From a virus, in the IMG/VR virus record IMGVR_UViG_3300042465_004824, positions 1 through 20,744 of that record: a stretch of 20,744 nt of DNA. The stretch is one strand, 5' to 3'. Below, one piece after another: positions 10,430 to 20,744 of this stretch. Within the stretch, counting starts at the first letter, position 1; every line of letters begins with the position of its first letter. A program made the position numbers and the translations under genes. A model generated the notes under the pieces. That model was not told the origin of the DNA. It saw only the letters and a program-made list of their open reading frames with translations, and made no database searches.

Positions 10430-11316
10430 TGGGCAACCGAGTAACAACGCCAAACCTTCGATTTGAATTTGTCAACGGATGGATGACAGGCGGAACAGAT
10501 CCAGCCGACGGCAGCGTGGAGTGTGGCGATGGGACAGCATTTCCAATGGAGGTGACGCTCGATCAAGTTGCAGAGATATTCTACCGGGTCAAAGATGCTT
10601 GGTTCACATCTGGGAGCGCATCATGGAAAGTTTCAGGAACGCCGCAAACGATAAACGCAGCAACAGATGCACCAGTAAATAGAACGCTTGAAATCGACTC
10701 TGTAACATACCAGAAAAGAGGATACACGATTTCAGGCGCCTACCCATACAACGCTGCGACATACGACGCAGGCATCGGTAACAATTACAGCGACATTGCA
10801 GACAACGAAAACGGAATGTGGAAGGATGCTTGGAATGACCCGGATCATGTCGACGCCTTTTCATACCATCAAGATGATCCGAACAGCATACAAGGAGGAG
10901 ATCCAGAATGGTGGGGCGACACGGGTCTCGGAGTCTATGCAAAAGTTTTTCGTGGCAAGCGCGTGGCAGTCGTCAAACTCGATCCGGCAGATGGGCTGTA
11001 TGCGGCAACGAACAAGTTCTATCTGGAGATTGAAATGTATTGGTTTGATTATGGCGTGGTGCCGTTTGGAGGCAGCACCAACATTTACAATTCTCAAGGC
11101 GGATTCGGTGATTTCAGCTCTCGGGCAGTCTTAATTTCAGACTACATCTTGAGGCTTGCAACTGGTGATGCAACTTGTCTTGTCTACTTCGATGCGCTTG
11201 GATCGACTGACGAGACTGGAACCGATTTTATCCATGAGCCGCAGGTCTGGTGGCCCTATGCCAAAGACAATCCAGCCGTGCCGGTCTGGGATACTGACAA
11301 CGGCGCGAAGCTCTAG
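10429..11316 (+). CDS. Large minor tail or tail-tip structural protein
   Basis: This 295-residue protein is rich in Asp, Gly, Trp and Tyr: NGWMTGGTDPADGSVECGDG near the start, FYRVKDAWFTSGSASWKV, DPEWWGDTGLGVYAKVFRG, and EIEMYWFDYGVVPFGGS. High aromatic content with many short strands is typical of exposed structural or receptor-facing proteins. It has no signal peptide and no recognisable catalytic motif. It starts within the TAATG of its neighbour and is followed by a TTGACA element, so it may close this transcription or translation block. Function beyond a tail structural role is not known. Confidence 0.48.
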   Translation: MGNRVTTPNLRFEFVNGWMTGGTDPADGSVECGDGTAFPMEVTLDQVAEIFYRVKDAWFTSGSASWKVSGTPQTINAATDAPVNRTLEIDSVTYQKRGYTISGAYPYNAATYDAGIGNNYSDIADNENGMWKDAWNDPDHVDAFSYHQDDPNSIQGGDPEWWGDTGLGVYAKVFRGKRVAVVKLDPADGLYAATNKFYLEIEMYWFDYGVVPFGGSTNIYNSQGGFGDFSSRAVLISDYILRLATGDATCLVYFDALGSTDETGTDFIHEPQVWWPYAKDNPAVPVWDTDNGAKL

Positions 11317-18571: not shown

Positions 18572-19285
18572 ATGACATCCGAACTATCCGAAATCACTCC
18601 GCTCATCCTCGCTGGGGATGGGTATCAACTGACCATCTCCCCAGAGGCCGAGGCTCGCAAGGCAGCGCTCATCGAGAAGGCATCCGCGGTCACGACCGTT
18701 GCCAGCAACGACGACAGCTCCGCCGCACAGCGCCACACCCGCGCTCTCGCTGCCATGCGCATCGAGGTAGAGAAGTCACGCAAGCTCGTCAAGGAGCCGG
18801 TCAACCGGATCGGCAAGATGATTGACGCCGCCGCTGCCGACTTCCTAGCCGAGATCGTCGCCGAGGAGAACCGCATCAAGAAGCTTGTCGGCGACCATGC
18901 CGAGGAGGTCTTGCGCATCAAAGCAGCGAAGGAGGCGGAAGAGCGCAAGGCGTTCGACGCTGCTCGGGCAGCGAAGGAGGAGGCTGAGAACGGCGGGATC
19001 GCCGCAGTCATCGCCGCAAAGAAGGCTCTCGCCGACAAGCTCCAAGCGAGCAACGAGGTCGCCGCGACCAAACTCTCCGACGGCATCCGCTTCGCTTGGG
19101 ACTTCGAGGTCATCGACATCAATCAACTGCAATCGCTCCGCAACGACCTTGTCACCGTCGAGCCGAAGCGAGCCGCTATTCTCGCAACAATCAAGGACAT
19201 GGAGGAACACGGCTATGCAGTCGAGGCACTCGCCGAGACCCTCGGCATCCGCGCATTCAAAAAACCAATCGTCAGCAGCCGATGA
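18572..19285 (+). CDS. Coiled-coil recombination-type protein
   Basis: This 237-residue protein has a long central coiled coil (about residues 90-160, EEVLRIKAAKEAEERKAFD) and a C-terminal part FAWDFEVIDINQLQSL, LVTVEPKRAAILATI and GIRAFKKPIVSSR. The WxFEV(T/I)D...I(K/L)...G-I/V-R ending resembles phage proteins that accompany RecT-type recombinases and are often annotated DUF1351-like. It lies between a single-strand-binding-like gene and a nuclease gene, consistent with a recombination or replication module. The start is ATG 18572 with leader acaataacacaa. Its stop overlaps the nuclease start (ATGA). Confidence 0.5.
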   Translation: MTSELSEITPLILAGDGYQLTISPEAEARKAALIEKASAVTTVASNDDSSAAQRHTRALAAMRIEVEKSRKLVKEPVNRIGKMIDAAAADFLAEIVAEENRIKKLVGDHAEEVLRIKAAKEAEERKAFDAARAAKEEAENGGIAAVIAAKKALADKLQASNEVAATKLSDGIRFAWDFEVIDINQLQSLRNDLVTVEPKRAAILATIKDMEEHGYAVEALAETLGIRAFKKPIVSSR

Positions 19286-19557
19286 GAGAGTCAACCATCG
19301 AGAAGGCGGTCTGCGCGTATGCGAAAGCCAAGGGCTGCATCGTCATGAAGCTGGCCGGGCAGAACCAGCGCGGCCAGCCCGACCGGCTATTCATCCGCGC
19401 CGGCAAGGCACTCTTCCTTGAGTTCAAGTCTCAAGGCAAGAAGCCGACCGCGCTCCAAATCAAGTGGCTCATCGACCTTACCAACCAAGGCATGAACGCC
19501 ATGTGGTGCGACTCGATACCCGACGGAAAAAAACTTATCGACAGGATCTTTCTTTAA
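19282..19557 (+). CDS. VRR-NUC family nuclease
   Basis: The start is ATG 19282 in an ATGA overlap; the open frame also continues upstream inside the previous gene. The 91-residue protein has the compact VRR-NUC pattern: Glu7 in STIEKAV, QPDR with Asp34, LFLEFKSQG with Glu47 and Lys49, then ALQIKWL with Gln59. These match the D...(E)xK core of PD-(D/E)xK enzymes, which cleave DNA junctions or flaps. The length matches stand-alone phage members. It is probably a junction or recombination nuclease working with the preceding two proteins. The same frame contains the stop TAA at 19555 and the next ATG 12 bases later. Confidence 0.8.
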   Translation: MRESTIEKAVCAYAKAKGCIVMKLAGQNQRGQPDRLFIRAGKALFLEFKSQGKKPTALQIKWLIDLTNQGMNAMWCDSIPDGKKLIDRIFL

Positions 19558-19569
19558 ACCAACCAAAAA

Positions 19570-20744
19570 ATGTGGATACTACCAAAACAATTACACACCT
19601 CAGCCTTTGTGCCGGATACGGAGGCATTGATCTCGGACTTAGCCGAGCAATCCCAAATCTGCGCACAGTCGCTTTTTCTGAGATCGAAGCCTTCGCTTGC
19701 GCGAACTTGGTCGCAAAAATGGAAGCGGGACTCTTGGTCGCAGCTCCTATCTGGACGAATCTTAAAACCTTCCCTTGGTCAGAGTTTCGTGACCGCGTGG
19801 ACATCCTCTCTGGAGGTTATCCCTGTCAGCCATTCTCTGCAGCTGGAAAGCGGCTCGGAAAAGACGACCCAAGACACCTCTGGCCTTGGATTGCAGATGG
19901 AATTGTTTCCATGCGACCCAGAGTCGTCTTCTTCGAGAATGTCGAAGGACATATCAGTCTTGGACTCAGAGAGGTCATTGAAGATCTGGAAAGACTTGGT
20001 TACAACTCGACGTGGGGAGTATTCTCTGCGCGTGAAGTCGGCGCACCTCACCAAAGGAAACGAGTGTTTATCCTGGCCGACCGTGACGGCAAACGAGGAC
20101 AGTTATCGGATTGGTGGAAACTCACAGCAGAGTCATTGTCTGTCAGCGATGGCGAGACGCGGAGAGCTTGGCCTAGCCGCCCAGGTCAAGCCCAGCACGG
20201 ATGGGAGCCGCCTAGAGTCGTGGGCAACGCCGAGTACGATGGATCACATCAATGTAGTGAGGAGGCCAGAGGAACGAAGTCAGGCGGCGAACAAGGGCGG
20301 GTGCAAAAACTTGAGGGAGGAGGTACATCAATGGGCGACTCCTCAACAGATGCCACAGACGGATGCGAGTTGGCCAACACCAGCAGTCAAGGATGTGACT
20401 GGCGGCCCGTACAAGACCGAACTGGTCAATGGTCAGTTTCGCAGATACCACAACCATACAGAGGAAAATCCAGTGGCATACGGAACGAATTTAAAAGATG
20501 CGGTGAGAGTGATGGAGACATGGGCAACGCCGAGGGCGGGATGCCCAAGCAGTCCAGTGCCGGGGACTGGCGGGAAGGTGCTGGAGGAGCAGGTGAGGGG
20601 AGGCAACTGGGCAACACCGCAGGCAGATTGCAGAACCAAACCAATGCATCCCGAAAGACTAGGGGGTGGGCAACCAACTCTAAAATCTCAAACTCAAACT
20701 GGGACGGGCAAACTGAATCCACGCTGGGTGGAGACTCTGATGGG
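19570..20744 (+). CDS. Overlapping ORF with W-(P/A)-T-P modules, in the +1 frame of the methyltransferase (3'-partial)
   Basis: This frame opens at ATG 19570, 12 bases after the nuclease stop, in the caaccaaaaa context shared with other starts. It has no stop to the end of the window (391 codons). It begins MWILPKQLHTSAFVPDTEAL. From residue about 169 it shows W-x-T-x modules: WPTVTANED (20074), WATPSTMDH (20221), WATPQQMPQ (20332), WPTPAVKDV (20371), WATPRAGCP (20521) and WATPQADCR (20608). It ends in view with LNPRWVETLMG. These modules and the LNPxWVExLMG phrase occur in proteins often annotated as phage methyltransferase parts. Here the frame runs through the whole methyltransferase gene, so it may be a true overlapping gene. 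Its N-terminal half is Ser-rich and has no recognised domain. Confidence 0.6.
   Translation, partial: MWILPKQLHTSAFVPDTEALISDLAEQSQICAQSLFLRSKPSLARTWSQKWKRDSWSQLLSGRILKPSLGQSFVTAWTSSLEVIPVSHSLQLESGSEKTTQDTSGLGLQMELFPCDPESSSSRMSKDISVLDSERSLKIWKDLVTTRRGEYSLRVKSAHLTKGNECLSWPTVTANEDSYRIGGNSQQSHCLSAMARRGELGLAAQVKPSTDGSRLESWATPSTMDHINVVRRPEERSQAANKGGCKNLREEVHQWATPQQMPQTDASWPTPAVKDVTGGPYKTELVNGQFRRYHNHTEENPVAYGTNLKDAVRVMETWATPRAGCPSSPVPGTGGKVLEEQVRGGNWATPQADCRTKPMHPERLGGGQPTLKSQTQTGTGKLNPRWVETLM
19572..20744 (+). CDS. DNA cytosine-C5 methyltransferase (3'-partial)
   Basis: This frame uses GTG 19572, inside ATGTG with the overlapping ORF start, and stays open to the end of the window (391 codons, no stop). 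It carries C5-methyltransferase motifs in order: motif I LSLCAGYGGIDLGL (residues 10-23), motif IV GGYPCQPFSAAGKR with catalytic Cys85, motif VI FFENVEGH (Glu122-Asn123-Val124) and motif VIII APHQRKRVFILAD (Gln161 to Arg164). After residue 168 follows the variable, Gly/Ser/Glu-rich region with VGNAE, MGDSS, LANTSS, MGNAEG and LGNTAG units. The later motifs IX and X would lie beyond the window. It probably modifies phage DNA to evade host restriction. Alternatives in the leader: the frame is open upstream, but the GTG is the best-placed start. Confidence 0.85.
   Translation, partial: MDTTKTITHLSLCAGYGGIDLGLSRAIPNLRTVAFSEIEAFACANLVAKMEAGLLVAAPIWTNLKTFPWSEFRDRVDILSGGYPCQPFSAAGKRLGKDDPRHLWPWIADGIVSMRPRVVFFENVEGHISLGLREVIEDLERLGYNSTWGVFSAREVGAPHQRKRVFILADRDGKRGQLSDWWKLTAESLSVSDGETRRAWPSRPGQAQHGWEPPRVVGNAEYDGSHQCSEEARGTKSGGEQGRVQKLEGGGTSMGDSSTDATDGCELANTSSQGCDWRPVQDRTGQWSVSQIPQPYRGKSSGIRNEFKRCGESDGDMGNAEGGMPKQSSAGDWREGAGGAGEGRQLGNTAGRLQNQTNASRKTRGWATNSKISNSNWDGQTESTLGGDSDG

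Follow-up and report, generated by a model that had tools for sequence, protein, structure and literature searches.

Two open reading frames across one phage cytosine methyltransferase gene, probably encoding complementary parts of a single enzyme

Introduction

Close to the right end of a virus record, a short DNA word recurs six times within a methyltransferase gene that is open in two frames on the same strand. This raises the question of which of the two possible proteins the word belongs to, and what the second frame might encode. The DNA analysed here, the window, is the 20,744 nucleotides of IMG/VR record IMGVR_UViG_3300042465_004824, which is truncated at its end and in which portal, protease and capsid genes are present. 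The methyltransferase gene (PF00145) is at the right end of the window, where both of its frames run off the sequence, and an endonuclease ORF with a match to phrog_93 is just upstream (19096-19557). A 98% identical relative (L003/L054) contains both ORFs complete, and comparison of the window with L003 finds zero differences in the repeat region. In this relative the methyltransferase frame reads on through LRLLGNGVVPATA, which is motif X, while the +1 frame, referred to here as the W frame, reads on through LNPRWVETLMGLPVGW and stops 35 nt ahead of the methyltransferase-frame stop. The bacterial genomes matched by a profile of the W frame are three Verrucomicrobiota and one unclassified bin, which suggests the Verrucomicrobiota as possible hosts of the virus.

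To our knowledge, few full-length overlaps on one strand show conservation of both frames across hundreds of genomes, and it is rarer still for the halves of one enzyme to overlap in this way. Literature searches found no description of this overlapping arrangement in phages.

Results and discussion

The six copies of the word are as follows, each with its reading in the two frames.

20074..20085, + strand: repeat copy 1, WPTV (W frame) / LADR (methyltransferase frame)
20221..20232, + strand: repeat copy 2, WATP (W frame) / VGNA (methyltransferase frame)
20332..20343, + strand: repeat copy 3, WATP (W frame) / MGDS (methyltransferase frame)
20371..20382, + strand: repeat copy 4, WPTP (W frame) / LANT (methyltransferase frame)
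20521..20532, + strand: repeat copy 5, WATP (W frame) / MGNA (methyltransferase frame)
20608..20619, + strand: repeat copy 6, WATP (W frame) / LGNT (methyltransferase frame)

The original prediction placed TGG[CG]C[GA]AC at 20074, 20221, 20332, 20371, 20521 and 20608, with one frame reading W-[P/A]-T and the other [L/V/M]-[A/G]-[D/N], and this is exactly what is found, all six positions leaving a remainder of 1 when divided by 3. The stricter word TGGSCRACNCC is present 5 times in the window, always in the repeat region, against 0.14 expected, and 0 of 100 shuffles reached 5. TGGGCAAC occurs a seventh time at 20667-20674, in a different phase from the others and without forming a W-x-T-P copy, and again at 10430, elsewhere in the window. 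Tandem Repeats Finder reported no array for the repeats and their spacing is variable, from 39 to 150 nt; the copies therefore do not form an ordinary DNA repeat.

The frame to which the repeats belong was addressed with two controls on the window, each of 2000 synonymous codon shuffles, holding either the methyltransferase residues or the W-frame residues fixed. With the methyltransferase residues fixed, W[PA]T words have a mean of 0.70 and a maximum of 4, and the 6 observed are reached in 0/2000. With the W-frame residues fixed, [LVM][AG][DN] has a mean of 5.56 against the 6 observed, and 1050 of the 2000 shuffles are at or above this. It follows that the repeat is W-[A/P]-T-P, an amino-acid motif selected in the W frame, and that the L-A-D series only shadows it. 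The comparison of W-T-P and L-A-D codons that had been proposed gives the same answer in relatives, where the W-frame residues of 257 W-x-T-P words are held, their third bases vary and L-A-D follows. The third bases of the methyltransferase codons at [LVM][AG][DN] are G in 92%, C in 77% and C in 98%; neighbouring ORFs, whose usage is ordinary, have 31-39%, 34-44% and 58-66% at these residues. The equivalent I-[A/G]-[D/N] is almost missing from the methyltransferase frame (6 versus 288), though isoleucine is not rare there.

The expectation that phase is kept across the spacers was borne out in all 4,487 of 4,487 alignable variable-region blocks compared between relatives. It had also been proposed that one repeated word shapes both proteins, either through selection in both frames or through expansion of the word. 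Selection in both frames is supported, with stops absent from either frame against the shuffle expectation. Shuffles preserving the W frame give 8.7 expected methyltransferase-frame stops in the repeat region and zero stops in 0/2000, and shuffles preserving the methyltransferase give 5.5 expected W-frame stops over the window gene and zero in 2/2000; zero were observed in each case. Expansion is not supported, since the W-frame residues are kept, their third bases are free and the L-A-D series is a shadow. That a mobile or slipped DNA word has expanded with its phase incidental would fit six similar 8-nt words in 550 nt, but it is scarcely credible and is rejected on the lack of a tandem array, the variable spacing, the shuffle controls, the freedom of W-frame third positions and the conservation of the words in phase in hundreds of relatives.

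Relatives in which one frame keeps the repeats and the other is disrupted, which would have spoken against the original prediction, are rare. The case found is L247, with one nonsense codon in the methyltransferase frame and an intact W frame. Other candidates of this kind were rejected. In L031 and L251, what looks like a single indel after the core shifts the frame and joins the W-frame N-terminus to the methyltransferase-frame C-terminus; metagenomic frameshift errors exist in the set of relatives, and these two are probably assembly errors or decayed genes. In L124, L131, L076, L137 and L267, motif X has moved into the W frame.

The overlap is not confined to the repeats noted first: it extends over the whole methyltransferase gene, with the following features.

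19570..19574, + strand: twin overlapping starts ATGTG, read directly; the W frame starts with ATG at 19570 and the methyltransferase frame with GTG at 19572
19572..20744, running off the window end, + strand: methyltransferase (alpha-like) frame, with C5 cytosine methyltransferase motifs I-VIII (PF00145, E 3.6e-33; phrog_363, E 1.2e-55)
19570..20742, running off the window end, + strand: W (beta-like) frame, +1, open over the whole methyltransferase gene (phrog_1008, E 1.8e-13)
19812..19838, + strand: motif IV GGYPCQPFS with the catalytic cysteine, methyltransferase frame, from the translation and inside the PF00145 match
20052..20075, + strand: motif VIII QRKRVFIL, methyltransferase frame, from the translation; the end of the catalytic core, where the Pfam match ends
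20169..20222, + strand: block that the family alignments show to be conserved in both frames, WPSRPGQAQHGWEPPRVV in the methyltransferase frame and AAQVKPSTDGSRLESW in the W frame
20710..20744, cut by the window end, + strand: motif IX-like KLNPRWVETLM(G), W frame, nearly invariant in 91 W-frame relatives

Viral contigs were collected with either frame as the query, giving 183 distinct methyltransferase genes. In 181 of these the +1 frame is open to within 40 codons of the methyltransferase end, as it is in 54 of the 55 complete genes at loci found by the methyltransferase frame alone. In the catalytic core there are no +1 stops in 27,364 codons, compared with 398 +/- 15 expected from synonymous shuffles, and in the variable and C-terminal region there are 4, compared with 374 +/- 12. 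The +2 frame is ordinary, with 1634 stops and 1611 expected. The multispecific methyltransferase of Bacillus phage SPR is a C5 methyltransferase with tandem recognition units. It was used as a canonical control, and differs from the gene described here in that its motif IX is in frame and its +1 stops (32 versus 33 expected) are ordinary in number.

Conceivably the +1 frame goes untranslated and is a shadow whose openness comes from codon bias or from the methyltransferase sequence. Composition can create same-strand overlaps, and annotation pipelines normally retain just one of two such frames. However, this explanation is very improbable and was rejected: synonymous shuffles predict many stops where none or few are observed, the +2 frame and the SPR control are as expected, six W[PA]T words do not arise in 2000 shuffles, and 181 of the 183 genes do not show ordinary numbers of +1 stops.

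Substitution rates at the three codon positions of the methyltransferase frame differ along the gene. In the catalytic core, at 75-80% identity, they are 0.19, 0.12 and 0.35, the methyltransferase third base being the fastest. In the C-terminal part the first and third positions are nearly equal (0.34 and 0.36) and the second is low (0.17), so both frames are under constraint there. In the repeat region the first position, which is the W-frame third base, is fastest at 0.367, compared with 0.144 and 0.171, and the W frame therefore dominates. The variable-region rates come from ungapped blocks, as codon-position rates from full alignments are blurred by misalignment. Seven named phages of enterobacteria and Rhodobacter are too diverged for a clear codon-position signal.

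The methyltransferase frame has motifs I-VIII, including PCQ and ENV, and matches HhaI and HaeIII by profile and by fold. Motif X is cut off in the window, is present in L054 (LRLLGNGVVPATA) and is nearly invariant across the family. No motif IX was found in this frame, and the Pfam match of the complete relative ends after motif VIII. The predicted structure is of the large domain fold only, with a confidence of about 90 in the core, a confident final helix and residues 174-414 mostly below a pLDDT of 50. On this model, the stretch between motifs VIII and X is apparently unstructured filler. In three relatives (L124, L131 and L076) a cysteine-rich, metal-site-like tail, CxxCDDVICWKCGGHYADCPCxGP, replaces motif X at the methyltransferase-frame C-terminus.

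The W-[A/P]-T-P repeats, likely to be a target-recognition region, are in the C-terminal half of the W frame, together with the nearly invariant segment KLNPRWVETLMG of the 91 W-frame relatives. This segment, LNPRWVETLMG in part, is taken to be the motif IX of C5 methyltransferases. A plasmid methyltransferase (L295) has LNPDWVEWLMGYP in frame, aligning with RKLHPRECARVMGYP of M.HhaI; taken by itself, the second domain is weak, and the PF00145 match of this protein extends through LNPDWVEWLMGYP. The W frame of the window is 31.8% identical to that of C75C1 over all 391 residues (E 5e-33), and PHROG 1008, labelled as a DNA methyltransferase, matches 93 of 93 W-frame proteins. No credible relative of the W frame was found in the PDB by profile search or in Pfam by member-by-member scans, and AlphaFold of the W protein alone is poor (pLDDT 53). 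The N-terminal half of the W frame overlies the catalytic core, where a two-subunit enzyme gives it no role; like the poor model and the lack of Pfam and PDB relatives, this weighs against the reading offered below. In two relatives, L106 and L240, the W frame ends early, with RLNPRWVCVLMNLPVFWVKP or KLNPRWVCVLMNLPVFWVKP and then a stop, and about 200 new residues are added to the methyltransferase frame ahead of motif X.

The W protein could have an independent task, for example in counter-defence, and merely share its DNA with the methyltransferase. Its conservation, its own start, its own repeats and its lack of a Pfam match would be consistent with this. The explanation is nonetheless improbable, as the most conserved segment of the W frame matches the one motif that the methyltransferase frame is without, and the same module is present in frame within other C5 methyltransferases. 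In the Mycobacterium phages WillSterrel (gp71) and Filuzino (gp68), the region from motif VIII to motif X contains LLPTP repeats and motif IX; these phages differ from the window in that the repeats and motif IX are mostly in frame with the core, as one polypeptide. In mycobacteriophage Firecracker the repeats, motif IX and motif X are on an overlapping second ORF. The W/LxTP repeats and motif IX can therefore be seen as a module of C5 methyltransferases.

There is precedent for division of a C5 methyltransferase between two polypeptides. The small (beta) subunit of M.EcoHK31I is encoded in another frame inside the gene for the large (alpha) subunit. Compared by description with this two-polypeptide enzyme, which recognises YGGCCR, the locus appears similar, with motifs I-VIII and X in one frame and motif IX on a second that is +1, open, conserved and provided with its own start within the same gene. 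It differs in that the overlap is nearly complete, the starts are twinned and the W protein is larger, with several W-x-T-P repeats. The large subunit of M.EcoHK31I has motifs I-VIII and X and only motif IX is on the small subunit, the predicted target recognition domain (TRD) being placed in the large subunit and not the small (PMC3404938). Here the W frame is the one under selection in the repeats, and between VIII and X most of the methyltransferase frame is modelled below a pLDDT of 50. In the split methyltransferase M.AquI, the distal variable region and motif IX are on the second polypeptide, as is motif X (PMC3404938). The distal variable region and motif IX are similarly on the W frame here; motif X differs, being on the second frame in only a few relatives, for example L124, L131, L137 and L267.

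The +1 motif IX segment is also present in named phages and plasmids, although these records were partly picked by W-frame similarity and so give no frequency. They are C75C1, Paenibacillus phage Rani, P. polymyxa plasmid pAP1, Erwinia Gungnir39, Acinetobacter ABMM1, a cyanophage, Rhodoplanes and Nostoc plasmids, Klebsiella phi12.5, Stenotrophomonas S72, N15, Bas70, K1ind2, KMB43, RcRios and Klebsiella PIN2. With the exception of Rhodoplanes, most have a +1 open length exceeding all or nearly all of 300 shuffles, an excess not seen in the canonical SPR methyltransferase. In pAP1 (L288) there are two copies of motif IX, LNPTWVECLMGFP and LNPAWVECLMGFP, in the +1 frame with stops between them, which suggests a C-terminal duplication. 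Streptococcus phage Javan246 (L313:1501-2487) has a canonical C5 methyltransferase with motif IX in frame, and yet a 189-codon +1 ORF, reached by 0 of 300 shuffles, covers its core and variable region. This ORF is without W-x-T-P repeats.

Databases annotate either frame as the methyltransferase. In Klebsiella phages PIN2 (L291) and PIN1 (L298) the annotation 'DNA methyltransferase' was given to the W frame, and the catalytic-motif frame has no annotated CDS. In Paenibacillus phage Rani (gp50/gp51) and Escherichia phage K1ind2 (gp32/gp33), a second CDS is annotated within the methyltransferase CDS, in the +1 frame, and is labelled 'g50 Internal gene' in Rani. These +1 frames share the W-x-TP repeats and LNPxxxxxLMG with the window. 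They differ in having an internal start within the core instead of twin starts, and the records state no mechanism.

The explanation that best survives as an alternative is a +1 ribosomal frameshift after motif VIII, joining the core to the W repeats and motif IX as a canonical enzyme, with the unshifted frame as a second product. The core, LxTP repeats, IX and X do exist in frame in mycobacteriophages, and in L124, L131, L076, L137 and L267, where motif X is in the W frame, a fusion of the core with W would complete the enzyme. However, a frameshift leaves unexplained the openness of the W frame over the whole core (0 stops versus 398), the W start beside the methyltransferase start, and the methyltransferase frame that remains open beyond the junction with its own motif X. 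The junction also lacks the frame-0 stop expected at a typical +1 shift site. Among 181 relatives, 114 have ATGTGGRT, in which the W frame starts at ATG and the methyltransferase at GTG, and 57 have ATG(NNN)nNNATGGRT, with one ATG per frame; in all 181, each frame has a start codon in the 60 nt before motif I. Because both starts are correctly framed in 171 of 181, the sequences argue for independent initiation rather than frameshifting, and the latter is considered unlikely. Twin starts are not universal, as the W ORF of the Paenibacillus phages starts inside the core.

Conclusions

Both frames are open and conserved, have start codons and, on the motifs that can be read in them, are complementary. 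From this we infer that both may be translated, that their products would act as one joint enzyme, that the repeats would read DNA and that the role would be protective. The same DNA thus probably encodes a two-subunit C5 methyltransferase twice over, resembling M.EcoHK31I and M.AquI. Both halves would come from a single mRNA, on which the two start codons are 2-5 nt apart. The frame from GTG at 19572 would produce the large subunit of a C5 cytosine methyltransferase, with motifs I-VIII, apparently unstructured filler and motif X, and the +1 frame from ATG at 19570 would produce the second protein, with the W-[A/P]-T-P repeats and motif IX in its C-terminal half. The two halves would pair to form an active sequence-specific enzyme, alpha responsible for catalysis and beta for the small domain, as in M.EcoHK31I and M.AquI, and the enzyme would presumably shield phage DNA against host restriction.

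There is a reasonable likelihood that these genes are a very large phage family that has been overlooked, with twin starts and both subunits of one enzyme encoded over almost the entire length, the +1 frame providing recognition and motif IX and the other catalysis. If true, this would account for two unrelated protein families being called 'DNA methyltransferase' by PHROG and GenBank. It would also mean that many phage methyltransferases, in their annotated form, are without motif IX, and would offer a clean system for asking how two proteins evolve within one sequence.
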